From: a virus
Direction: 5' to 3' (one strand)
Length of the DNA stretch: 28,117 nucleotides
Virus record (IMG/VR): IMGVR_UViG_3300032242_003806
Span: 1 to 28,117 of that record
Made by a program: the position numbers and the translations under genes. The notes beneath the pieces were generated by a model. It was given only the letters and a program-made list of their open reading frames with translations. It was not told where the DNA came from and did no database searches. Of the stretch, positions 3,391 through 28,117 are shown piece by piece; position 1 is the first letter of the stretch, and the number at the start of each line of letters is the position of its first letter.

Positions 3391-4044
3391 ATGCGACTAC
3401 TAAAATACATATCACTAGCGTCATTAGTATTGCTGTTAATGGCGATGACTGGTTCGGGTCCAACCGGGGTAAAACTCCAACATGCTAGATACACGAGTCT
3501 TTACAGCACGACACTTCATTATCCAATAAAGGTTGAATGGTGGGAGACCAGAAATAGGGTCGGTTGCACAAATCCATTGCCCAGAAAGGATGCATTCGGG
3601 CCTGACCCCCAATTAGTTAATGAAACTAACTTGGCAAAGGACTATGTCGGTTCAGGATTGGACAGAGGTCACATGTGCCCGGCTGCAGATAATGAATGCG
3701 GCGACAGTAGATTACTAATTGAATGCTTTTATTTTTCCAACATGGCACCACAGTACCATTCGTTAAATGCTGGAGACTGGAAAAAATTGGAAGAAAGAAC
3801 TAGACACCTTGCGCTACAATACGACTCGGTGATGGTATGGTGTGGTTCAGTGGGCTCAGCTAAAAGAATCGGTACAACAACGGTACCCACTAAATGCTGG
3901 AAGGTCATCTACGTTAAGAGCACCAAAACCTGGGAATGCTACATCTTTAACAATACTCCAGACAAGCCGGTTGGACTTCCTCATTGGTCAGTTAATAAGG
4001 ACGTGGTTGAAAAATTAACTGGATACACGTTCGTAATTAACTAG
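3391..4044 (+). CDS. Exported DNA/RNA non-specific endonuclease (NucA/Serratia type)
   Basis: 217 residues. A hydrophobic N-terminal segment (residues 4-20) is a signal peptide or membrane anchor. The catalytic core is that of the beta-beta-alpha-metal non-specific nucleases (PF01223): DRGHMCPAAD at 91-100 contains the catalytic His94 of the DRGH motif, FYFSNMAPQ at 113-121 supplies the conserved Asn117, and LNAGDWKKLE at 125-134 carries the Asn126 expected to bind Mg2+. Length is close to the bacterial family norm, so the enzyme looks intact. It would degrade DNA and RNA outside the cytoplasm, which protects phage DNA from it during replication. Possible roles are destroying DNA of competing phages during entry, scavenging nucleotides, or clearing extracellular DNA. 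The family call is from motifs; the role is inference. Confidence 0.9.
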   Translation: MRLLKYISLASLVLLLMAMTGSGPTGVKLQHARYTSLYSTTLHYPIKVEWWETRNRVGCTNPLPRKDAFGPDPQLVNETNLAKDYVGSGLDRGHMCPAADNECGDSRLLIECFYFSNMAPQYHSLNAGDWKKLEERTRHLALQYDSVMVWCGSVGSAKRIGTTTVPTKCWKVIYVKSTKTWECYIFNNTPDKPVGLPHWSVNKDVVEKLTGYTFVIN

Positions 4045-4144
4045 TTAGATTAGCCGCACCTTGTCTCTGGTCTATTTGTTCTCGAGCTGACTTTTTAATG
4101 TCAGTTCTCTCATCGTTAAGTAATTTATACAGGGCTTCGATTGT
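4037..4144 (-). pseudogene. Frameshifted C-terminal LRV repeat of the 4125-4823 gene
   Basis: Downstream of the stop of the LRV gene, in the +1 frame, an ATG-less stretch encodes TIEALYKLLNDERTDIKKSA followed by a short polar tail and stop at 4037-4039. It fits the next LRV repeat exactly in register (compare KTPIEALEHLL in the gene at 2-454). A one-base deletion near 4141-4150, in the run AAAAATTTAAAC, would explain the break. The restored stop would overlap the convergent nuclease gene by 8 bases, like other tail-to-tail pairs here. A sequencing or assembly error, or programmed frameshifting, could give the same picture. Confidence 0.65.
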
Positions 4145-4823
4145 TTAAATTTTTCAGGGCCTCATGTCTAATCGAGAACATATCATCGCTTTTCCATTTG
4201 GCCTCCAGTATCTCTATTGGAGTTTTTGGATTCCTGGCAACCGCTAGTTCAACCCAATAGTTAGAATCATCTGCTAATTTACTAAGAATGTCAGCAGTAG
4301 TTTTATCATCTTCGGCCACTTTAATTCTAACTCCTGGCATTTCATCATTGGCCAATTTTGTCAGTATCTTAGCTGACGTTCTTGGATTTGTTACAACTGC
4401 AAACCTAATTAGTGAGTCTTGATCATTTGCTAATTTTGATAGAAACCTGACAAGTACATTCGGATTCTTGGCAACAGCTAACCTAACCTCATGCTTTGAG
4501 TCCAGCGTTAACCTGCTAAATATTTCAGAGCTAATGTTCAGGTTAGTTGCAACGTGCTCCCTAACTTTATAATTGGAATGATACGATAGCTTAGTTAACG
4601 TTTCCGGATCTGTTTTTGGGTTACAGGCAACGAAACATTTAATAAAATCTTCTGGTCGTTCGGCCAATTGGGATAGCTCAAATTCTGGAACTTCAAGGTC
4701 GAACCCGTATTCGTATACGTCGTTCGCCCAATCTGAGGTGGACTTCATGAGACCCATCCGGACTAGACGATCTCTTGTTTCTTTGAATTGATCTGTATAT
4801 GTTGAAGCTTCGTTCATTAACAT
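4125..4823 (-). CDS. LRV/HEAT-like helical-repeat protein, apparently damaged at both ends
   Basis: 232 residues. Residues 18-32 read RDRLVRMGLMKSTSD, matching the RLxxMGLA module of the LRV genes at the left edge. About seven LRV-type repeats follow (for example TLTKLSYHSNYKVREHVATN, FLSKLANDQDSLIRFAVVTN, ILTKLANDEMPGVRIKVAED), which makes it the longest of the three paralogues. The upstream sequence in the same frame, from an ATG at 4850, reads MTSKFY-stop-GQMLMNEA, i.e. a capsid-targeting sequence interrupted by TAA. Downstream a further repeat is found in another frame. The gene is therefore probably a decaying copy or a recoded one. It is still open over most of its length and could be translated from 4823. 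It is a solenoid protein of unknown partner. Confidence 0.7.
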   Translation of the reverse strand: MLMNEASTYTDQFKETRDRLVRMGLMKSTSDWANDVYEYGFDLEVPEFELSQLAERPEDFIKCFVACNPKTDPETLTKLSYHSNYKVREHVATNLNISSEIFSRLTLDSKHEVRLAVAKNPNVLVRFLSKLANDQDSLIRFAVVTNPRTSAKILTKLANDEMPGVRIKVAEDDKTTADILSKLADDSNYWVELAVARNPKTPIEILEAKWKSDDMFSIRHEALKNLNNRSPV

Positions 4824-5044: not shown

Positions 5045-5827
5045 TTAAACCTTTGCTTTAGGTTTGACTGGCTGTTTTAATTGAGCAATTTGTTGATTCG
5101 TATTTTGAGTTGTTTGAGCGATCACAGTTAATCCTAAATTCGACGACTGACTTATCGTGTAAGCTTTCGCTACTTGCTTTAGCGCAAGTTCCTCAGCCTC
5201 TCCACCAGCAGCGTGTGCACCGACCGCTGTTGGATTTAGTTTAGCTAACATCGATATGAATTGCTTTATTGTATTAGGAACAGAAACCGTTAAGTACTTG
5301 GTTATTGCAGTCTCAGCCGCTTGTAGAGAACCGAACTTACTTAATAGCCATTTGCCTACTTCCGAATTAGCAATGGATTTTATTTTTGAACCCAACCATT
5401 TTGCCACATCCTGTAAAAGTTTTAGAATTTGATTGGCATGACCAGCGGCTTTGCCGGCCGAGCTCTTAGCCAAATTTATTACGCTTTGACCTGCGCCTTT
5501 TTTAAATGCATCAACTATTATCTTTATTTCGGATTTAAAGGAAACTGCCGCCGCTTGAAATGCTCCGATTGCAACAACTGATCCGAGCGTAACCACACCC
5601 TGTAAGTTTAGTGACATTTTCTCAAGTTGACCTTCAGTTGCATCGGATTGAATGAAGTAGCTAATTGCATGAATTATGTCAATTATCGATCCTGCGCCTG
5701 GCACAACTGAGTCGGCTACCGCACTAACCACATCAGTAAATAAATGAGCCCAATCACCGACTGACCAGTCTTCATCCAGTTCAGAGTATCTTTCGACCCA
5801 TTCCTTATATTCTAAAATGTATTGCAT
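5045..5827 (-). CDS. Predicted capsid-internal protein with hydrophobic Gly/Ala-rich domain
   Basis: 260 residues. The start MQYILEYKEWVERYSELDED has the Tyr-x-x-Trp-Val-x-Arg pattern of a degenerate capsid-targeting sequence. Residues 30-60 (VVSAVADSVVPGAGSIIDII) and 75-98 (GVVTLGSVVAIGAFQAAAVS) are Gly/Ala-rich amphipathic to hydrophobic segments; the VVPGAGxxID pattern recalls the segment preceding toxin domains in some polymorphic toxins and lytic proteins. The middle is Lys-rich and helical; the C-terminus (about 225-260) is Gln/Thr-rich and polar, ending in PVKPKAKV. It might insert into or cross a membrane on ejection. It is the last gene of a three-gene late operon and starts on the last base of the preceding stop (TAATG), implying coupled translation. 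Function not established. Confidence 0.75.
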   Translation of the reverse strand: MQYILEYKEWVERYSELDEDWSVGDWAHLFTDVVSAVADSVVPGAGSIIDIIHAISYFIQSDATEGQLEKMSLNLQGVVTLGSVVAIGAFQAAAVSFKSEIKIIVDAFKKGAGQSVINLAKSSAGKAAGHANQILKLLQDVAKWLGSKIKSIANSEVGKWLLSKFGSLQAAETAITKYLTVSVPNTIKQFISMLAKLNPTAVGAHAAGGEAEELALKQVAKAYTISQSSNLGLTVIAQTTQNTNQQIAQLKQPVKPKAKV

Positions 5828-6276
5828 TAAACGTCCTTTGGCTCCTTGCCAGTTGCTTTTTTGATGTATGCAGCTGCTGCCGCTTCTGGATTATCTGCCC
5901 AGCTAAAGTTCTTTTTGGCTTTAGTTTTGAAGTCCTTGCCCTTCATGTGTGAAAGACTCTTCTTCATTGATTTAGGTTTAAGATTTGGGTACTTTTCTTC
6001 AGCGTCCTGCATTACTTCTTTACGAGACTTTTTCGCCGCTTCATCAAGGCCTTCAGCATCTCTTTGTGCTCTAACCCATTCGTCAGAATTGTACATTCGG
6101 TCATGCGCAGTTAAGCTGTCATCGTGTTTAGCTTCACAGTGTTCTCCACAGTCGGAACAAATATCGCCCATCATTATTGGAGCACCGCAGCAATTCGATA
6201 AACCTTCCTCGTATGCATCTCTTGGATCCCAGCTTTCAGCAATGAACTGGTTAAATGATTTTACTTGATTTTTCAT
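5827..6276 (-). CDS. Predicted capsid-internal zinc-ribbon protein
   Basis: 149 residues. MKNQVKSFNQFIAESW is one of the clearest capsid-targeting sequences in the window, with cleavage predicted after IAE; it differs little from T4 IPIII (MKTYQEFIAEA). Residues 27-49 form a small zinc ribbon, SNCCGAPIMMGDICSDCGEH, with Cys29, Cys30, Cys40, Cys43 and possibly His46 or Cys47 as ligands. The C-terminal half is highly basic (KKSRKEV, PKSMKKSLSHMKGKDFKTKAKK) and would suit binding to packaged DNA. It is the second gene of the operon 5045-6764 and overlaps its successor by one base. I infer a DNA-associated head protein delivered into the host. Confidence 0.8.
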   Translation of the reverse strand: MKNQVKSFNQFIAESWDPRDAYEEGLSNCCGAPIMMGDICSDCGEHCEAKHDDSLTAHDRMYNSDEWVRAQRDAEGLDEAAKKSRKEVMQDAEEKYPNLKPKSMKKSLSHMKGKDFKTKAKKNFSWADNPEAAAAAYIKKATGKEPKDV

Positions 6277-6296: not shown

Positions 6297-6764
6297 TTAC
6301 GGTTCGTAATTCTCGTCCTCCTCGTCCTCCTCATCGGAAATTCCAAGAGTCTCAGAGTTAAATTTATCCCATTCCTTAATCGCAGTTTTCATTGTGGTAT
6401 TTAGCTCAATGAGTTCAGTTTTTAAGGTTTCAACCTTGGTCCGATCAGCATCGTCAGTTGGATTCTTACGAACTTCTTCCGGAATTTCTAAGAATTCTTG
6501 TTGCTTAACCTTAAAAGCTTTAATGGCGTCCTTACGAGCTGTGTCTAATTTCTTGTACTGTTCAATCTCGCTCTCAGCTGAGCCATCTGGGGTTGAAACA
6601 CCGGTGGTCTCTTCCTCAGGCGTCGTTGGCATCGGAGTCATTGGCTCTGGGGTGGCAGCTGCCGGATTTGTAAGATCTGTGGTTACGTTAGGCGTGATTG
6701 ATGCATCCGGTGATGCTTCGACCTTTTCGGATTCCTTGATCCAGTCTTGATATTTACGAATCAT
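6297..6764 (-). CDS. Predicted capsid-internal protein with Pro/Thr linker and acidic tail
   Basis: 155 residues. MIRKYQDWIKESE carries the capsid-targeting consensus, with cleavage after IKE. Residues 18-65 are a low-complexity Pro/Thr/Glu linker (for example PEPMTPMPTTPEEETTG). Residues 68-140 are predicted coiled coil, with many Lys and Glu. The last 15 residues are strongly acidic (DEEDEEDENYEP), encoded by a tandem CTCGTCCTC repeat at 6312-6329. The architecture resembles small scaffolding or core proteins, but also other internal proteins. It is the first gene of the operon and is preceded by a GATAAATAA late-type box 17 bases upstream. Confidence 0.75.
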   Translation of the reverse strand: MIRKYQDWIKESEKVEASPDASITPNVTTDLTNPAAATPEPMTPMPTTPEEETTGVSTPDGSAESEIEQYKKLDTARKDAIKAFKVKQQEFLEIPEEVRKNPTDDADRTKVETLKTELIELNTTMKTAIKEWDKFNSETLGISDEEDEEDENYEP

Positions 6765-6814: not shown

Positions 6815-7150
6815 ATGAAAGCTATACTCAACTTTTCAGGTTGGCTGACCGAAAATGAGCAGGCCAGACCTCTTAGACAAATTCATGAATTGGGAATCAA
6901 CCGTAAATTCGGTAGAGATCCATTCACCGGTGACAAGTACGAGACCGAACTGTTTCCGATGTTCAGACGGTTACAGCCTAGGATAGATGCTCTGCCCAAG
7001 AAACCAACGCTAGAGGAATTCTTTGAGCTAATGCAGAACTCTGATAATCAGTTCTACTCAATGGTTCAAGCTGATACGCTGGCCCAACCTGACGTTAGGG
7101 AACTTTGGAGGGATCTTACCGGTCGTAGAGCTTCCAAGATTGAGTATTGA
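6815..7150 (+). CDS. Small predicted capsid-internal protein
   Basis: 111 residues. MKAILNFSGWLTENEQ contains the capsid-targeting pattern (Asn-Phe-x-x-Trp-Leu-x-Glu), with predicted cleavage after LTE. The segment RQIHELGINRKFG at residues 21-33 loosely resembles the RLxxMGLA module that follows the signal in other members. The rest is charged, with several Arg and Pro residues, and matches no family I know. It is the first gene of a plus-strand group of three (with the membrane protein at 7182 and the signal-bearing protein at 7516), so the group is probably expressed late. Confidence 0.75.
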   Translation: MKAILNFSGWLTENEQARPLRQIHELGINRKFGRDPFTGDKYETELFPMFRRLQPRIDALPKKPTLEEFFELMQNSDNQFYSMVQADTLAQPDVRELWRDLTGRRASKIEY

Positions 7151-7515: not shown

Positions 7516-7959
7516 ATGAAATCGTTTAAGCAGTTTGTTTTGGAAAGCTCTGATCAAGTTGTTAGGCTTCGAAAAATGGGTCTAGCTTTTGTACCCATGA
7601 ACGTTCAATCTAATGATGGAACCTTTGACCAAGATAAAGAAGAAGAAGTTGCCACTATATGGAGGTCAACTAATGATGGGTTAGTTATCAAATCAGTAGA
7701 AGGTCGAGTTGAAGAAGATAGAGCACTATTGGACATTAAATTAAGTAATGATGATCTCATTAAAATAGTAGTGTCTTACATTGAATCTGATCCTGAAGAT
7801 CTAGCTATTATGTACATCATTAAGTTAGATGGTACTCGTAAAGCGATAGGCTTGAGAACGGATCTTTATAATGAATGGCATGATGAATTTAGTGACAAAT
7901 TTGCGTCAAGCGGTTCATTTATTAAAGCTGCATTGGACCTATACGAAAAGTATCGTTAA
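7516..7959 (+). CDS. Predicted capsid-internal protein with RLxxMGLA module
   Basis: 147 residues. MKSFKQFVLESSDQ is the most canonical capsid-targeting sequence in the window: Lys-Ser-Phe-x-x-Phe-Val-x-Glu-Ser, with cleavage predicted after VLE. It is followed at once by VVRLRKMGLAFVPM, the second shared module. The remainder is acidic, with a likely beta-rich core (LDIKLSNDDLIKIVVSYIES) and a helical C-terminus. No known fold is recognised. It follows the membrane-protein gene by one base and its stop overlaps the stop of the convergent gene at 7956 within the four bases TTAA. It probably is co-expressed late with its upstream neighbours. Confidence 0.8.
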   Translation: MKSFKQFVLESSDQVVRLRKMGLAFVPMNVQSNDGTFDQDKEEEVATIWRSTNDGLVIKSVEGRVEEDRALLDIKLSNDDLIKIVVSYIESDPEDLAIMYIIKLDGTRKAIGLRTDLYNEWHDEFSDKFASSGSFIKAALDLYEKYR

Positions 7960-9081: not shown

Positions 9082-11067
9082 ATGATTAATTCTTTCATTG
9101 ATCTCATAAATGAATCTAATTCTAATCGACTTGGTTTAGTCGATGAAATGGGGATCAAGCAGCCCGAAAGATTAACTGGGAGTCACATCGGCCGAGCAAG
9201 ACAACAAACGCTTGATCGAAATCGTGATCTTGCGAACCAACCTGCACGTAGATCGTACAATGAGGTCGCAGGTCAACTTGAAAATGCCCTAAAGACAATT
9301 CGCCGGTTGGACATCACAATGGAAAGACCCAACAACACTAGAAACTACTATCCAAGGTTTCCTGAACCGATCGTTAACTTAATGACCGAATTGAAGTCAA
9401 TTGACGAAAGCCGATTTAAAGCGGACTTTGGAAAATGGAGGGACGTTTACCCAACAGAATCCGATTCAATTTGTTTTAGGACAGACGGAGTTTCCGAATT
9501 TCAAAGAAGTCACTTTCCAAACGGAGGTATACCAAAGGCTCTTCGAGGAACCGGTCTTGGGTTCAAACTGTATAGAACCCTGCTTAAGTTCGCCGGTTAC
9601 ATTTCTTCAAACTCTTCCGGGACAGCAGAAAAGGACAAGGCCTGGGGATCAATGCTATCCTATAAATCTAACCCGGACGGCACTCCTTCCGTTGACGATG
9701 CACATGCCGTGATAGGCCCAGGTAACTGGATGGCAATAGACAAGGGTTACGGAACGTCAGAGAATAAATCTGAGCTTGTTGAAGAATTCATCCTTGGGTC
9801 CATTGGAATAGAAAATACCAAACCTGATAAATTTGACATGGACGATGAGCTGATTGCAATTTTACCGGACGAGTTTCTAACCAGACTAAACAGTGCCTAT
9901 CTTAATCAACTGGCTGAAGACGATCGAATTTCTCCTGAGAGAAAGGCTGCAATCATCGCTTCACGAACCGAATCCCAACGTCGAGAAGAAGAACGCAGAG
10001 CGGCAGCTGAGCAGGAAAACAGAGCTAGAATTGCACAACAAGAAGAGGCTCAGCGTCAGAGAGCAGAGGCTCGAATTCAGAAATACGGTGCTGAACCTGA
10101 AGCTGATTGGGAAATTGGTGACTTCATAGTGGTTAAACAGTACCTTTACGATACAGGTTACACAAGCTTGCCGATTAGAAGAGTGGTTGGTCGAATCGGA
10201 GAGGAATACGTTGCCGTTAAAGTACAAGATGCAATTCAAATAGATGCCGGCGACCTAACTATGGAAAATGCACCCGATACAAGGAAAACGACGGACAAGA
10301 CACGATGGGTCAAAGTGAACATTGAAAGAATTCCAAACCTGGATGAGGTTAACTTAACTAGGGCTGAGCAGTTGTACGTTAAGAGCCTAATGAATCCGGA
10401 AACTCAGGAACAACACGCCAAGGAAGAAACTCGAGTTGGAGCTGAGAGAATCGAATCTGAAAGAACCGCTAATCAGGACAGAGCAAGCGACCCAGAAACG
10501 TTCGGTGAATTGCCGCAATCCGGTCAGAGGTTAAAGGCAATGGTCGCAGCTAGAAATAATTTCCAGCACGTTAACTTACTTAAGAAATTTAGAAGCGGAG
10601 CGATTGATACTAATTTCATTATGTTAAACGGAGATCAGATGCAAGCATTACGAAATCCGTTCGGCACTCCAGTTTATGTCGCTTTTACTGGAGGACGGGT
10701 AAATTTAAACACGGCGACTTCGGTGGAGGATCCGAGCGACTTAATTGGCCCAGGCTCGGATAACATAACTGTGATAAACTTGGTAACAGGTCACATAATT
10801 AGGCCGCCGTTCACAGGTCTTGGACTAACTGCTTATCGATTAGCTAGAGTTGAAGAGGCTGATAAGTTAGCAGCTAGAGCCGGCGATCATTTTTACATCG
10901 CAAACCACATGAATAATTACGGAATCCTAGCGACATGCGATTACACGACTCGTAATACCGCAAGACAACCGTTCATCTACCTACGAACATTTGGAGGAAA
11001 CGAAAGATCTACTCCGGTTAGGTTAGACCTGCTGAGAAAGCTTGAAGGTTTCCCAATTACAATATGA
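9082..11067 (+). CDS. Large predicted capsid-internal protein with GNAT acetyltransferase-like domain
   Basis: 661 residues. MINSFIDLINESNSN is a capsid-targeting sequence with cleavage after INE, followed by MGIKQPERL, perhaps a divergent form of the MGLA module. Residues 90-225 resemble a GNAT N-acetyltransferase: LRGTGLGFKLYRTLLKFAGY (154-173) matches the acetyl-CoA-binding motif A (R-x-x-G-x-G), and SSNSSGTAEKDKAWGSML follows as in phage GNAT proteins. Residues 281-336 form a long Arg/Glu/Ala coiled coil. Residues 340-430 look beta-rich; near the C-terminus FTGLGLTAYRLARVEEADKL (577-596) echoes motif A and may be a degenerate second copy. By analogy with T4 Alt, an ADP-ribosyltransferase injected with DNA, it may modify host proteins on entry. 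The analogy is inference. Confidence 0.75.
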   Translation: MINSFIDLINESNSNRLGLVDEMGIKQPERLTGSHIGRARQQTLDRNRDLANQPARRSYNEVAGQLENALKTIRRLDITMERPNNTRNYYPRFPEPIVNLMTELKSIDESRFKADFGKWRDVYPTESDSICFRTDGVSEFQRSHFPNGGIPKALRGTGLGFKLYRTLLKFAGYISSNSSGTAEKDKAWGSMLSYKSNPDGTPSVDDAHAVIGPGNWMAIDKGYGTSENKSELVEEFILGSIGIENTKPDKFDMDDELIAILPDEFLTRLNSAYLNQLAEDDRISPERKAAIIASRTESQRREEERRAAAEQENRARIAQQEEAQRQRAEARIQKYGAEPEADWEIGDFIVVKQYLYDTGYTSLPIRRVVGRIGEEYVAVKVQDAIQIDAGDLTMENAPDTRKTTDKTRWVKVNIERIPNLDEVNLTRAEQLYVKSLMNPETQEQHAKEETRVGAERIESERTANQDRASDPETFGELPQSGQRLKAMVAARNNFQHVNLLKKFRSGAIDTNFIMLNGDQMQALRNPFGTPVYVAFTGGRVNLNTATSVEDPSDLIGPGSDNITVINLVTGHIIRPPFTGLGLTAYRLARVEEADKLAARAGDHFYIANHMNNYGILATCDYTTRNTARQPFIYLRTFGGNERSTPVRLDLLRKLEGFPITI

Positions 11068-11812: not shown

Positions 11813-11821
11813 GATAAATAC
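11813..11821 (+). promoter_or_regulatory. Late-type promoter box GATAAATAC
   Basis: GATAAATAC, 40 bases before the ATG at 11862, the same distance as the box at 1686-1694 from its gene. Confidence 0.5.
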
Positions 11822-11861: not shown

Positions 11862-12221
11862 ATGAAATTAAAAACGTTCGAACAATTTGCAGACCCTGTG
11901 TCAGAGGGATTTTTTGACTGGCTTACCGGCAAGCAAGAAGACGGAGAGGTTAAGCCAAAGACCGGCACGCCTGATGTAACCGATGCAGCAATCAAGGATT
12001 TCTACGAAACTCTGCAGCAATTCGCTGACTCAGGTAAGTCAATCCTCGTTCAAAAATTCGGATCGATGCAATATTCCAAGATGGTTGAAGACATTCAGTT
12101 ATCTCTGGTGTTCTTGGGATACCCATTGCCCAAATACGGAATTGACGGTCTATTTGGAATAGAAACTGCAACTGCCATCAAAAGGTTTAATGATGCAACC
12201 AAAAAGAACCAAGAATCGTAA
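11862..12221 (+). CDS. Predicted capsid-internal peptidoglycan-binding protein
   Basis: 119 residues. MKLKTFEQFADPVSEGFFDW fits the capsid-targeting pattern with a slightly longer spacing before the predicted cleavage site VSE-G, the residues T4 gp21 prefers (E followed by A or G). A charged linker follows. Residues 75-110 match the PG_binding_1 repeat (PF01471): DIQLSLVFLGYPLPKYGIDG then LFGIETATAIKRF, with the hallmark D-G-x-F-G-x-x-T-x-x-A-I. It is the first gene of a two-gene late operon; its stop overlaps the ATG of the peptidoglycan hydrolase (TAATG), implying coupled translation and a joint job at the cell wall. Confidence 0.85.
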   Translation: MKLKTFEQFADPVSEGFFDWLTGKQEDGEVKPKTGTPDVTDAAIKDFYETLQQFADSGKSILVQKFGSMQYSKMVEDIQLSLVFLGYPLPKYGIDGLFGIETATAIKRFNDATKKNQES

Positions 12222-13459
12222 TGACAATAATTAAGAATTATCAAGGTTTCGTAAGGTCGCTTAATGAGTCCGCCTCCGATGATCTTAGATCAGAGCTTAC
12301 GGACTTGGGGTATTCCGAGAAATCCAAGGAAATTAGTTCAGGTGGAGAAATAACCGGAGACATTGAAAAGATAGTTGAGGTCGTTCTGGCTGAGTTTAAA
12401 AGAACTTCACCGACCTCTAAGGTAACGGTGACCAGCGGTAACGATAAGTTTCATCAACAGTTAGGTTATTCAAGTCGACACACAAAGGGTCAAGCGATAG
12501 ACCTTGTGGTAACGCCCGATTCGGGTGAGGTACGGAAAGCCTTCGTGGAAATCCTAAATAGGGTGTCAGCTGGTACTCCAGGTTTTAGCTACATCGATGA
12601 GTACACCAATCCATCGTCAGCAGCAACGGCGGGTCACTTTCACCTATCGTACGGACCAAAACCTGAGAATCCAAGCACTGCTAACTTAAATGCCCCTGAT
12701 CCAATAAAGGTTAGCGGGTTAACCGGCGCTGAAGTTGATCCAGCAGAAGTCAATGGTGTGATAATAGATTCTGATCTAATCACTCGACTAATAGATGAAT
12801 TAAAAAAGAAGAAATTTTCTCAGGCTGATCTAGCTAAATTTTCTAAAATGGCTAAGCCAAACGGTCAACCTTCAATTAATCTTGATTCAAAGGACTTCGC
12901 TGGTATTGTTTCCCAAGTAATTGATAAGCTGGAAGGAGGGTACTATCATCCTGACATGCTAAGGGACGGTCGAGTGACCGATTCACGATACGGTAACTCC
13001 GGCGAAACTTTATTTGGAATAGATCGAGCTGCTGGAGGAGAAATTAATGATACTCCTGAGGGAATTGAGTTCTGGAATTTAATAGACTCAGCAAATGCAA
13101 GAACCGATTGGAGTTGGGGATACCGAGGAGGTCAGCTAGAACCTAAGCTTAAGAACCTTGCTGGAAAGATGATTAAGAGGTACTACGATAAGTACTCTAA
13201 GATATACTTATCCGATGAGGCTCTAAAGATAGTTAATGAAAATCCAAAGCTACTCTTTAATTTTGTGTATGCAGTATGGAACGGACCGGGTTGGTTTAAG
13301 AAGTTTGCGACAACAATGGACTCGGCTGTTGCAAAAGGAATAACCGATCCCGAAGAACTAGCTAAGCTAGAGGTTCAAGATCGGTTAACTAGCGGAAATA
13401 GTTTAATTTCACAGGGCGGTAAAACCGTTGGAAATATTCTCGGAGTACAGACAGCTTAA
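12221..13459 (+). CDS. Bifunctional peptidoglycan hydrolase (M15-like peptidase plus lysozyme-like domain) with capsid signal
   Basis: 412 residues. MTIIKNYQGFVRSLNESAS is a capsid-targeting sequence, cleavage predicted after LNE. Residues 45-147 resemble an M15/VanY-type metallopeptidase: SRHTKGQAIDL (85-95) gives zinc ligands His87 and Asp94 in the HxxGxAxD motif, and GHFHLSYG (138-145) gives the final H-x-H. A linker of about 75 residues leads to a lysozyme-like domain, about 225-400: LEGGYYHPDM with probable catalytic Glu238, GNSGETLFGIDRAAGG (258-273), typical of GH108-type and related phage muramidases, and VYAVWNGPGW. It would cut both stem peptides and glycan strands. The N-terminal signal suggests virion packaging and use at DNA entry rather than as the lysis endolysin, but lysis cannot be excluded. 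Confidence 0.8.
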   Translation: MTIIKNYQGFVRSLNESASDDLRSELTDLGYSEKSKEISSGGEITGDIEKIVEVVLAEFKRTSPTSKVTVTSGNDKFHQQLGYSSRHTKGQAIDLVVTPDSGEVRKAFVEILNRVSAGTPGFSYIDEYTNPSSAATAGHFHLSYGPKPENPSTANLNAPDPIKVSGLTGAEVDPAEVNGVIIDSDLITRLIDELKKKKFSQADLAKFSKMAKPNGQPSINLDSKDFAGIVSQVIDKLEGGYYHPDMLRDGRVTDSRYGNSGETLFGIDRAAGGEINDTPEGIEFWNLIDSANARTDWSWGYRGGQLEPKLKNLAGKMIKRYYDKYSKIYLSDEALKIVNENPKLLFNFVYAVWNGPGWFKKFATTMDSAVAKGITDPEELAKLEVQDRLTSGNSLISQGGKTVGNILGVQTA

Positions 13460-16444: not shown

Positions 16445-16993
16445 ATGAAACAGTACGTGGCTCTTTTCGAGCATTTTGAGGAAGAATTCGATGACTTCTA
16501 TAGTAAACCTGATCCAAAATCGGATCAAACGTTTCACACCGTTGCCAATGAACTTATTGAGCTAGCGAATCAGTACACCGATCAAGAATCTCCAATTGAA
16601 ATGTACTCGGATAAGTACTCAACTCCGACCAGAGTTAGGGATTTACAGAGCGATCTAATCGCTCACATTAACGATACAATGGGTGAGAACATGGCCGAAG
16701 ACTTCATGATGGCATCGGACGATTTACTTAAATCATACGGTGTGATGGAATCCAAAAAGAAATTGGACCAAGACGGAGATGGAGACTCTGACTTCATTGA
16801 TGCTAAGATAGCTAAGTATAAAAAGGGAGGAATTGCGAAGGAGCCTGCAATTAAAAAGGCCAAGCTGTTCGCTAAGACTAATAACATTCCGGATAACGGA
16901 ATTTCAAAAACTTCGTCCAAAGCTTTAAATCTTGAAAAACCTACGGGCAAAAAGATTAACATGCGACCTCGACAAACTAAAAACCCAAGGTAA
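16445..16993 (+). CDS. Predicted capsid-internal protein with EF-hand-like Asp motif
   Basis: 182 residues. MKQYVALFEHFEEEFDD is a weaker capsid-targeting candidate (Lys-Gln-Tyr ... Phe-Glu-x-Phe-Glu-x-Glu). Residues 22-100 are acidic and helical. Residues 107-117 (LDQDGDGDSDF) form a DxDxDGxxD-type calcium-binding loop, followed by IDAKIAKYKKGGIAKEPAIK, a combination I know from phage-encoded proteins of unknown role. The C-terminal 50 residues are basic (KINMRPRQTKNPR), which would suit DNA binding. It has the best late-type promoter box of the window and precedes a DUF4494-like gene. Function unknown. Confidence 0.7.
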   Translation: MKQYVALFEHFEEEFDDFYSKPDPKSDQTFHTVANELIELANQYTDQESPIEMYSDKYSTPTRVRDLQSDLIAHINDTMGENMAEDFMMASDDLLKSYGVMESKKKLDQDGDGDSDFIDAKIAKYKKGGIAKEPAIKKAKLFAKTNNIPDNGISKTSSKALNLEKPTGKKINMRPRQTKNPR

Positions 16994-25300: not shown

Positions 25301-25768
25301 TTAAGAAAGTCTGTCTAAAATTAACAGTTGAGTATTTATGACCTTTGAATAAGCTTCAGAAATCTTTATGAACCCGGCCCAGTCTATTTCGGCACTTTGT
25401 AATTGAGATTTTGGAACCTTTAGTGAGTCTAGCCCAATCTCTGATAAATCATTGATCTTACACTCCAGGTAGTGTAGAGAATTACGGTACTTATCGCCCT
25501 TCCAAATTTCAACGCTTTGAACTGCTGGACTAAGTTTATCAGGTCTTATTAAAATTCCGGTTTCCTCAAACGTCTCTCGAATTGCAGCATCCATCGGTTC
25601 TTCACCAGGTTCGATCTTTCCCTTTGGAATTCCCATTAACGGTTTTACCCAACTGCCATTAGCTGGATGAACCAGTAAAATCTTGCCATCGTACACAATC
25701 GCTATCCCAGCAGTATCCAGTAAGACCTTACTCTCTCCCATGAATTGTGAAAAAGTTTTAATCGACAT
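25301..25768 (-). CDS. Nudix hydrolase with capsid-targeting N-terminus
   Basis: 155 residues. MSIKTFSQFMGESK is a clear capsid-targeting sequence (Lys-Thr-Phe-x-x-Phe-x-x-Glu-Ser), cleavage predicted after MGE. The Nudix box is complete: GKIEPGEEPMDAAIRETFEE then TGI at residues 50-72, with Gly50, Glu56, Arg64, Glu65, Glu68, Glu69 and Gly71 in the GX5EX7REUXEEXGU positions. The fold begins at about residue 19 (DTAGIAIVYDGKILLVHP). Substrate cannot be read from sequence: candidates are NAD(H), ADP-ribose, nucleotide alarmones, capped RNA or oxidised dNTPs. The N-terminal signal suggests it is carried in the head and acts at once on infection, unlike cytosolic T4 NudE. It lies two bases after its upstream gene, in a late-type operon. 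Confidence 0.85.
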   Translation of the reverse strand: MSIKTFSQFMGESKVLLDTAGIAIVYDGKILLVHPANGSWVKPLMGIPKGKIEPGEEPMDAAIRETFEETGILIRPDKLSPAVQSVEIWKGDKYRNSLHYLECKINDLSEIGLDSLKVPKSQLQSAEIDWAGFIKISEAYSKVINTQLLILDRLS

Positions 25769-26469: not shown

Positions 26470-27561
26470 TTAGATTAAGATCTTTATTGTTCTACCTCCT
26501 GCCGTTATAGTTGTCGGTGAGCTTACTTTTTTTGTCGGAGATGCCTTCTGAGTTTGAGGTTGACCTTGACCGGTAGGTTTAGTTTTAACTACATAAGTGG
26601 CCTTAGCTTTTTCTAATTGTTCGGGAGTTACTTTAGCTAAGATTGGATTTAATTTTGCTGAAACTTCAGGAGTGATTAAATCTACTGGACCCTGACCTAT
26701 TAATTTTCCAATTGCAGTAGCAGTTTTATCTCCGTAATACCCATCGGCCCCATAAGCTGCCATTACCCCTATTACGTCGGCATTGCCAGTCGCTAGCAGT
26801 TTATACTGTAAATCCTGAACCTTTTGATTTTTTTGACTTGACTTAGCCAAGTTAGTGTAATCTCCGGTTGCTTGAGAATTTGAAGCGGCTGAAGGTTGAG
26901 AATCTCCATTTCCTGCGGTTGAATTACTGAGACTATCTTTAGCAATATCTTTTTTCGAGTTAATGTTGAGAATTTCTGAAGGCCCAGTTAGTTTAATTGA
27001 ATTAATGTTATACTTGGATGAGTCCAGATGTATTGGGCTTTCTGGGGTCATCTGTTTGAGATCCTTATCTGACCAAACCTTAAGCTTAACGTTTGAGGTC
27101 GGAACGGTTATCTCTCCGATCATTTTAGCTTTACTAACATCATAAAGTAGGTAGTTTTGACCGTTTTCGTATTCCAATAAAAATGGCTTGAATGCTATCT
27201 CGTATTTAGCAACCTCCTGTCCAATTAAGTTTGACCTTTTGTACTTGTTCTCCTGAGCAAAAGCAATTAGAGAAGAAGCTTTCACTGATTTATCTCCAGC
27301 CTTGGTGCTTGAACCCGGCAGAGACTCAGCATTCACCATAGTTTCCGAATTCCACCAAGTTTGAAACTTTGGCCAATCGACTAAAACTTTCAAAATTTGG
27401 CCTATTGGGTTCTTTTCAATGTCGGCCTTTGCTAGCTTTAGAATGATTTTAAACCTTGCAACGTCTCCAGATTCTGGGTTAATTTTAGTAACGTTAGTCA
27501 CATTTCGAGCCTCATTTATCCGCTCGTTATTAAATTGGTCAAATGATTTGATTAAGTTCAT
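26470..27561 (-). CDS. Predicted capsid-internal protein with peptidoglycan-binding-like domain
   Basis: 363 residues. MNLIKSFDQFNNERINEARN begins with Lys-Ser-Phe-x-x-Phe and has INE-A as a predicted cleavage site, the form closest to T4. Residues 25-200 form an unrecognised domain, with W-rich DWPKFQTWWNSE. A Ser/Asn/Gln-rich linker (about 205-245) leads to residues 250-295, where DLQYKLLATGNADVIGVMAA then YGADGYYGDKTATAIGKL resembles a PG_binding_1 repeat (D-G-x-x-G-x-x-T-x-x-A-I). The tail is Pro/Thr/Lys-rich and ends ITAGGRTIKILI. It probably is an ejected protein that touches the cell wall. TATAAAAA (27577-27584, minus) may serve as promoter. Confidence 0.75.
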   Translation of the reverse strand: MNLIKSFDQFNNERINEARNVTNVTKINPESGDVARFKIILKLAKADIEKNPIGQILKVLVDWPKFQTWWNSETMVNAESLPGSSTKAGDKSVKASSLIAFAQENKYKRSNLIGQEVAKYEIAFKPFLLEYENGQNYLLYDVSKAKMIGEITVPTSNVKLKVWSDKDLKQMTPESPIHLDSSKYNINSIKLTGPSEILNINSKKDIAKDSLSNSTAGNGDSQPSAASNSQATGDYTNLAKSSQKNQKVQDLQYKLLATGNADVIGVMAAYGADGYYGDKTATAIGKLIGQGPVDLITPEVSAKLNPILAKVTPEQLEKAKATYVVKTKPTGQGQPQTQKASPTKKVSSPTTITAGGRTIKILI

Positions 27562-27580: not shown

Positions 27581-28117
27581 TTATAAGAAAGAGAAAGGTT
27601 TGATGTTTAGAAAACCTTCATTTTGAGGACTTGTTTCGGCGGATTGGCTTTTAAAGTCAGGTGCCTTATCTTTTTCCATGTCATCTAGGACCGCTTGTTT
27701 AACGGCTTCACGCTCCTCAGCCTTGATCTTACCCTCCTTAATTAAAAGATCAAGCGTTTCATCTAGTCTTGAGTTTTCATTTGTGTTAAGTTCTATTAAA
27801 CCGTTCTTGGCATTATAAACGTCCGCAAAATAGAGAGCGTCCTTTGGATCGTTAAAGTCTAGCGCATGTTGTACCTCAATATCGTCAGGTAGACCGGCCT
27901 TTTGTAGAATTCCCTTTGAGTAGTTAGTCGTCTCCTCCTGTGAAATTTTTCTAGCAGAGTCAGCATTAGCATCATTTGAATAGTTAGAGGCGGTTGAAGC
28001 CTGTAAACCAAGGTTAGCGGTGGTTACCGGCGGCTTAACCATTTGAACTCCAATTGTCGCTTCTACTGCAGCTGCCCCTTTTGTACAGTCGTTCTTAGAT
28101 TCAGCTTTGATTTTATC
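27581..28117 (-). CDS. Unknown protein, 5' end outside window
   Basis: The minus-strand frame is open to the right edge: upstream of the first in-window ATG (28042) it reads DKIKAESKNDCTKGAAAVEA then TIGVQ, so the real start lies beyond 28117. About 178 residues are visible. They are polar and acidic, rich in Lys, Asp and Asn, mostly helical (LDETLDLLIKEGKIKAEERE), without membrane segments or known motifs. The C-terminus ends NIKPFSFL. It is the most upstream visible gene of the late-type run 24683-28117. No function can be given. Confidence 0.7.
   Translation of the reverse strand, partial: DKIKAESKNDCTKGAAAVEATIGVQMVKPPVTTANLGLQASTASNYSNDANADSARKISQEETTNYSKGILQKAGLPDDIEVQHALDFNDPKDALYFADVYNAKNGLIELNTNENSRLDETLDLLIKEGKIKAEEREAVKQAVLDDMEKDKAPDFKSQSAETSPQNEGFLNIKPFSFL

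Follow-up and report, generated by a model that had tools for sequence, protein, structure and literature searches.

The T4 internal proteins with a capsid-targeting sequence were reportedly described by Mullaney and Black in 1996, and we know of no T4 internal protein that is a wall hydrolase. IPI, IPII and IPIII are the internal proteins that carry this sequence (PMC3012670). T4 itself bears its entry lysozyme on gp5, and reviews place the entry lysins of contractile-tailed phages on the tail and those of short-tailed phages inside the head. In particular, the head-internal lysins listed in a review of virion-associated lysins all belong to short-tailed phages (PMC5380687), and a second review agrees with it in outline on lysin placement (PMC6116005). 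The head-internal hydrolases T7 gp16, SP6 gp36 and phiKMV gp36 are core proteins of short-tailed phages and very large, at 107-143 kDa (PMC5380687). Myovirus parallels to the proteins described below are P1 DarB (PMC9024508) and the ejection proteins of SPN3US (PMC5694885), cargo with N-terminal propeptides that direct it to the capsid or are cut by a protease. The available parts of these two accounts do not mention wall hydrolases as cargo (PMC9024508, PMC5694885) and, in that of P1, the transglycosylase domain sits on the tape measure protein (PMC9024508). We found no report of a capsid-targeted wall hydrolase in a contractile-tailed phage in the open-access literature.

The stretch of viral DNA analyzed here (the window, 28,117 nucleotides) is a 28-kb fragment, and the capsid, protease, tail and endolysin genes are known from its syntenic relatives only. 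We found these relatives, of up to 271 kb, by searching with the exonuclease that neighbors the operon under study. The syntenic ones span 252-271 kb and encode a gp23-type capsid protein, a gp21-type prohead protease and a contractile sheath. Two genomes that look complete, G004 (270,962 bases) and G006 (253,137 bases), are collinear with almost all of the window. Judged by thymidylate synthase (55%), the best annotated relative is Flavobacterium phage immuto (Immutovirus), which has T4-type head genes and distant similarity to the clade in capsid protein, protease and sheath. Unlike the clade, immuto has a genome of 160 kb, and its VanY domain ends a 938-aa protein of the tail gene cluster that is not capsid-tagged. 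We take the window to come from a large contractile-tailed phage, with Bacteroidetes bacteria as its probable hosts. As a side observation, two thymidylate synthase genes (L002:11860-13748 and L003:11602-13574) are split by a GIY-YIG-like ORF of 232 aa that is absent from the window copy and is probably a homing endonuclease insertion.

The two operon proteins

Two forward-strand ORFs, encoding proteins of 119 aa (positions 11862-12221) and 412 aa (12221-13459), are coupled by a one-base TAATG overlap. A previous sequence-only reading had described them as an operon of a peptidoglycan-binding protein and a two-enzyme hydrolase, both with capsid signals, and our analysis confirmed the ORFs, the domains and the tags. 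PG_binding_1 occurs at residues 74-109 of the 119-aa protein with a score (E=5e-4, 20.6 bits) below the Pfam cut-off of 23 bits for this family, and is matched by 13 out of 13 orthologues (best E 1.1e-7). These matches and the overlap bear out its description as a PG_binding_1 partner TAATG-coupled to the hydrolase. The protein starts with a capsid-targeting-type peptide, MKLKTFEQFADPVSE (11862-11906, + strand), with a predicted cut after E15; F6, F9 and E15 of this tag are unchanged in all 13 orthologues. Its structure model is poor (pLDDT 54.5) and was left out of the fold comparison.

The 412-aa protein begins with a peptide of the same type, MTIIKNYQGFVRSLNE (12221-12268, + strand), with a predicted cut after E16. 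On the same strand follow a putative M15/hedgehog-type Zn-peptidase domain (residues ~45-150, 12353-12670), a conserved linker, VIIDSDLITRLIDELKKKKFSQADL (12752-12835), which is kept when the modules on both sides are exchanged, and a predicted T4-lysozyme-fold glycoside hydrolase domain (residues 222-410, 12884-13450). The motifs of both domains are conserved in the relatives: HxxGxAxD (H87-D94) and HFH (H139/H141) in the first, LEGGYYHP and SGETxxGIDR, with E238, T263 and D268, in the second. Database searches with this protein returned only a chance-level match in Pfam, none in PHROG and, for its sequence profile against PDB, only spurious matches to RNA polymerase; Foldseek alone found nothing significant for its model. 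The lysozyme and hedgehog matches came from VIA-align on the predicted model, whose mean pLDDT is 70, with low values at the N-terminus and in the linkers. The structures aligned to residues 222-410 are SagA, endolysin R21, pesticin and T4 lysozyme (Z 5.8-7.4); for residues 33-173, it is the hedgehog N-domain, at Z 5.9 and 16% identity. With Z <8 both matches are moderate, and lysozyme-fold entries fill the list of the second domain. The hedgehog N-domain and the M15 peptidases have a common fold, and for the first domain the HxxGxAxD motif agrees with this match. The M15-like region is also 35-38% identical to a stretch in tail or contractile injection system (CIS) proteins of other phages.

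Conserved motifs and modest fold matches in the predicted model therefore confirm that the window protein probably joins an M15/hedgehog-type Zn-peptidase to a T4-lysozyme-fold domain, in agreement with the M15-type metallopeptidase and lysozyme-like domain proposed before. The peptidoglycan-degrading domain of a virion-associated lysin is indicated by motifs and predicted folds here, and by Pfam matches of the exchanged modules in the orthologues. Assignment of the hydrolase to T4 gp5 and to the T7 gp16-type core lysins was considered and rejected: it has no OB domain match and, at 412 aa, no SLT domain match in Pfam or PHROG.

Capsid-targeting-type tags and late-promoter-like boxes

We described the tag by a pattern, aromatic-x-x-F/W and, after it, an E that precedes a small residue. 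The pattern was drafted after these N-termini had been seen, and the ranking of T4 proteins given below is its only independent test. At the N-terminus of both operon proteins is a tag that follows the T4 pattern and is 10-20 residues long, and about a dozen more proteins of the window start with capsid-targeting peptides of the T4 type. Overall, the pattern fits 9 of the 46 window ORFs, as compared to a mean of 0.7 and a maximum of 5 in shuffled N-termini, in line with the capsid signals claimed for the operon proteins. It also fits 28 out of 317 ORFs in G004 (shuffles: mean 4.6, maximum 11) and 26 out of 309 in G006 (mean 4.7, maximum 12; 500 rounds in all three cases). When the threshold was set at the 25th percentile of N-terminal scores, a short-form weight matrix gave 1 match in 139,785 internal windows of G004 and G006. 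Trained without T4, the tag matrix put T4 ipIII and ipII equal first among 272 T4 ORFs, with a score of 15.3 against 9.8 for the next ORF. Since a T4-blind matrix places ipII and ipIII first, we consider the tags to be T4-type capsid-targeting sequences. The residue at the tag end, where the x-x-E site would lie, is E15 in the 13 partners and a glutamate in all hydrolases. Just below ipII/ipIII and Soc, the matrix ranks T4 gene 61.1 (L172:18966-19130, start MKTFKEFIKED), the product of which is possibly an unrecognized T4 head protein.

A feature of the relatives may explain the working of the tag. Their gp21-type protease forms one protein with a scaffold-like region in which YxxYLxE is repeated 8-9 times (L149/L150, G004:99883-101904; G006:64429-66411), and every other protein in G004 and G006 has at most one such repeat. 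This repeat resembles the tag core. In addition, the predicted cut of the capsid protein falls at residue 53, after the glutamate of S[IL]NE and before S, and the tags end in LNE before S or INE before A. From these two likenesses we infer that the tag mimics the scaffold repeat and that its glutamate is cleaved. The same observations bear on whether the peptide instead targets the baseplate, the tail or a replication compartment, so that the enzymes would be virion-associated and not head-stored. The tail-cluster position of the immuto VanY domain speaks for such a destination, as does Psychrobacter phage D'Alembert, in which a 'contractile injection system' protein carries an M15-like domain. 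We nevertheless regard it as very improbable, since the motif fits T4 ipII and ipIII best, the tag resembles repeats adjoining the protease and ends in a capsid-protein-like site, and the same tag occurs on many further proteins, a NUDIX enzyme among them.

Tagged genes are further marked by late-promoter-like boxes. The T4 late promoter is TATAAATA, and the box [AGT]ATAAATA is close to it; one copy, GATAAATA (11813-11820, + strand), lies 49 bases before the operon. The box precedes 15 of 28 tagged genes in G004, 14 of 26 in G006 and 5 of 9 in the window, as compared to 46/289 (16%), 47/283 (17%) and 4/37 (11%) of the other ORFs, respectively (P-value 2e-5, 5e-5 and 0.008, Fisher test). The antisense control showed no such excess in G004 and G006. 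Genes with the box upstream also include one tail gene and those for the protease, the sheath and the endolysin; it is absent before ThyA, the exonuclease, the ligase, SSB and NrdA/B. The operon thus resembles the T4 internal proteins in its late-type promoter, in the gp21-type protease and gp23 capsid protein of the relatives and in that a short tag of like pattern is conserved at the N-terminus, in front of variable cargo, as in IPI, IPII and IPIII. The T4 proteins differ in being small defense proteins, none of them a known wall hydrolase.

Among the other tagged proteins of the window, one encoded at 26470-27561 (- strand, 363 aa) had been proposed as a third signal-bearing protein with a peptidoglycan-binding repeat. 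The capsid-type N-terminus held, and is present also in the G004 orthologue; the repeat is weak, with a match of the stretch 200-284 to PHROG endolysin families (E=3e-4) and none in Pfam. A capsid-tagged NUDIX hydrolase (25301-25768, - strand) was identified with E=2.6e-13, and a tagged 661-aa protein (9082-11067, + strand), with a late box upstream, is conserved in all close relatives. The tag is kept in G004 and G006 in two proteins with no assigned function (5827-6276 and 6297-6764, both - strand), and in G004 in two further tagged proteins (6815-7150 and 16445-16993, both + strand). Function is likewise unassigned for the proteins at 1735-2913 (tag matrix and late-box scan), 7516-7959 (late-box scan) and 885-1256 (tag-like N-terminus, late box upstream), all on the + strand. 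An RLxxMGLA(K/P) motif close to the N-terminus, followed in some by LAxNPxT-type repeats, is common to the ORFs at 438-878, 885-1256, 4125-4823 and 7516-7959, which form a family of likely cargo. Two other ORFs were observed in the window: a DNA/RNA non-specific endonuclease (3391-4044) with a secretion-type N-terminus and a late box upstream, conserved in G004 and G006, and an ORF at 27581-28042, cut by the window end, that matches part of a 756-aa G004 protein.

Tail hub, endolysin and exchange of catalytic modules

We searched G004 and G006 for a gp5-like tail lysozyme. Their gp5-like hubs (266 and 270 aa, respectively) have only an OB domain (Phage_base_V) and no lysozyme; the lysozyme is in a capsid-tagged PF00959 protein (281 and 274 aa) encoded elsewhere, which aligns with T4 gp5 residues 179-331. 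A tagged PF00959 lysozyme is present also in G007, where it lies within a row (L184:419-4474) of tagged leucine-rich-like proteins resembling tandem duplicates. Like T4 gp5, the clade's enzyme has a lysozyme-fold domain with a presumed role in wall passage, and the tagged protein of G004 and G006 aligns to the gp5 lysozyme itself. Unlike T4 gp5, the enzyme has no OB or beta-helix in its chain and is head-tagged, while the clade's own gp5-like hub is lysozyme-free. The sister-clade genome G013 shows the reverse arrangement, with a hub composed of OB and GH19 and an untagged T4-type lysozyme of 172 aa standing alone. Together with immuto, this indicates that catalytic families which are tail-borne in some phages are the same ones that lie behind a capsid tag here.

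The search for a separate endolysin returned an untagged GH19 enzyme in G001, G004, G006 and G015, the G004 copy with PG_binding_1. The operon could in principle encode an endolysin of the ordinary kind, or an auxiliary enzyme of lysis, together with a peptidoglycan-binding helper, its likeness to capsid tags being incidental or vestigial. Its fold and modules are of endolysin type, the GH19 modules of the relatives resemble endolysins of other phages, and the untagged endolysin likewise has a late-type box. We consider this improbable, given that the relatives have their own untagged GH19 endolysin, that tags are enriched over shuffles and retrieve T4 ipII and ipIII, and that the tag stays constant while the adjoining catalytic module changes. 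Consequently, we did not class the tagged hydrolase as an ordinary endolysin.

The constancy of the tag is best seen in the 13 close relatives examined, all of which have a tagged peptidoglycan-binding protein followed by a tagged hydrolase at the same place; the operon is absent from this place in the more distant G012 and G013. In the hydrolases of the relatives, the tag and the linker VLIDSDLIKRLIxKLKEKNFSQ are constant and the catalytic modules vary. We distinguished four N-modules, M15-like, VanY (E 1e-12), Amidase_2 (1e-8) and M23 (6e-23), and three C-modules, lysozyme-like, GH19 (1e-7) and a third type without family, which occur in seven natural combinations. For example, the window and L132 hydrolases are 62% identical over residues 1-208 and share nothing beyond, and those of L132 and L130 are 82% identical over the C-terminal 285 residues and share nothing before the linker region. 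A tagged CHAP protein is additionally found in G006 and G015, and a tagged Amidase_2 protein in G008. Overall, the tag is kept across unrelated enzymes (M15, VanY, Amidase_2, M23, CHAP and PF00959). We conclude that tag and linker form a fixed chassis on which catalytic modules are exchanged between phages, and this exchange probably matches the chemistry of the host wall.

Some arrangements outside this scheme were also observed. In L142:6987-8393 a single ORF encodes both the peptidoglycan-binding protein and the hydrolase; the tag-like stretch that divides them, FGAYFKNIYEAANG, looks like a place where the protease could separate the two. The lysozyme-like domain of the window also occurs stand-alone or differently fused in large phages of up to 270 kb (L008:9860-10705, L004 and L006), and some phages sharing it have gp23 and gp21 and other N-terminal peptides, such as MRNRLNEQVNRFKQIMN. 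In L005, L013 and L017, proteins with this domain have N-terminal parts that look tail-like by eye and matched no family, and for this reason we do not claim them as a tail-borne counterpart. Such a counterpart is claimed only for GH19, in G013, and, by gene position, for VanY, in immuto.

Probable storage in the head and proposed role in passage through the wall

The reading we prefer, and hold to be quite probable on the sequence evidence, is that the operon encodes head cargo, loaded through the capsid-targeting sequence (CTS) and ejected to open the wall in place of a gp5-borne lysozyme. Both proteins would be made late and drawn into the prohead core by the N-terminal CTS. The gp21-type protease would probably trim them after an x-N-E or x-S-E site, and the trimmed proteins would be packaged together with the DNA. 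Once the sheath has contracted, they would pass through the tube to the periplasm, and there the peptidoglycan-binding protein and the peptidase/muramidase-type hydrolase would open the wall locally. The head-stored enzymes would in this way take over from the gp5-spike lysozyme that is missing on the clade's hub. Late synthesis and tag-driven entry into the prohead are suggested by the boxes and the tags, and storage of the enzymes in the head is probable; packaging, cleavage, ejection and the role in wall passage are proposed by analogy with T4 biology (PMC3012670) and in view of the missing gp5-borne lysozyme. The head-stored route in a contractile-tail context put forward by the sequence-only reading finds good support at the sequence level in the bare gp5-like hub, the tagged lysozyme, the separate endolysin, gp21, gp23 and the sheath of the relatives. 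Two points count against head cargo: a two-domain protein of 412 aa must fit through a narrow tail tube, and the tail of G004 and G006 could hold an unrecognized hydrolase elsewhere.

The proteins might also be packaged in the head and have no part in entry. Entering with the DNA, they would then counter superinfecting phages, remodel the host wall or prepare lysis later on, much as T4 internal proteins serve in defense and in takeover of the host. T4 CTS proteins of known role serve defense or takeover (PMC3012670), and many tagged proteins of the clade have no wall domains. This seems unlikely, although it carries some weight, because peptidoglycan is accessible from the periplasm and delivery to the cytoplasm would be useless without export, and because a lysozyme-less hub leaves the entry role vacant.

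As head cargo used in entry, the operon enzyme would resemble T7 gp16, SP6 gp36 and phiKMV gp36 in being a predicted head-stored hydrolase ejected before or with the DNA (PMC5380687). It differs from the T7 gp16 group in its size (412 aa), T4-type tag, contractile tail and exchangeable modules. The mechanistic parallel with T7 that had been drawn earlier was given up, as the loading signal is that of T4 and no gp16-like domain was seen.

On balance, we lean towards the view that in this clade of T4-like jumbo phages the task of penetrating the wall has shifted away from the tail spike. It would now fall to head-stored, tag-loaded and interchangeable hydrolases (peptidases, amidases and glycosidases) and their wall-binding partners, which would be ejected through a contractile tail with a lysozyme-free spike. 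If this is true, a capsid-tagged, domain-swapping hydrolase in a T4-type phage would unite two systems that have been held separate, and ejection of an enzyme through a contractile tail onto the wall would become directly testable. The tag-linker chassis with its seven module combinations represents a natural series on how phages adapt the cutting of the wall, and, through the tag, dozens more proteins of these genomes become candidates for ejection.
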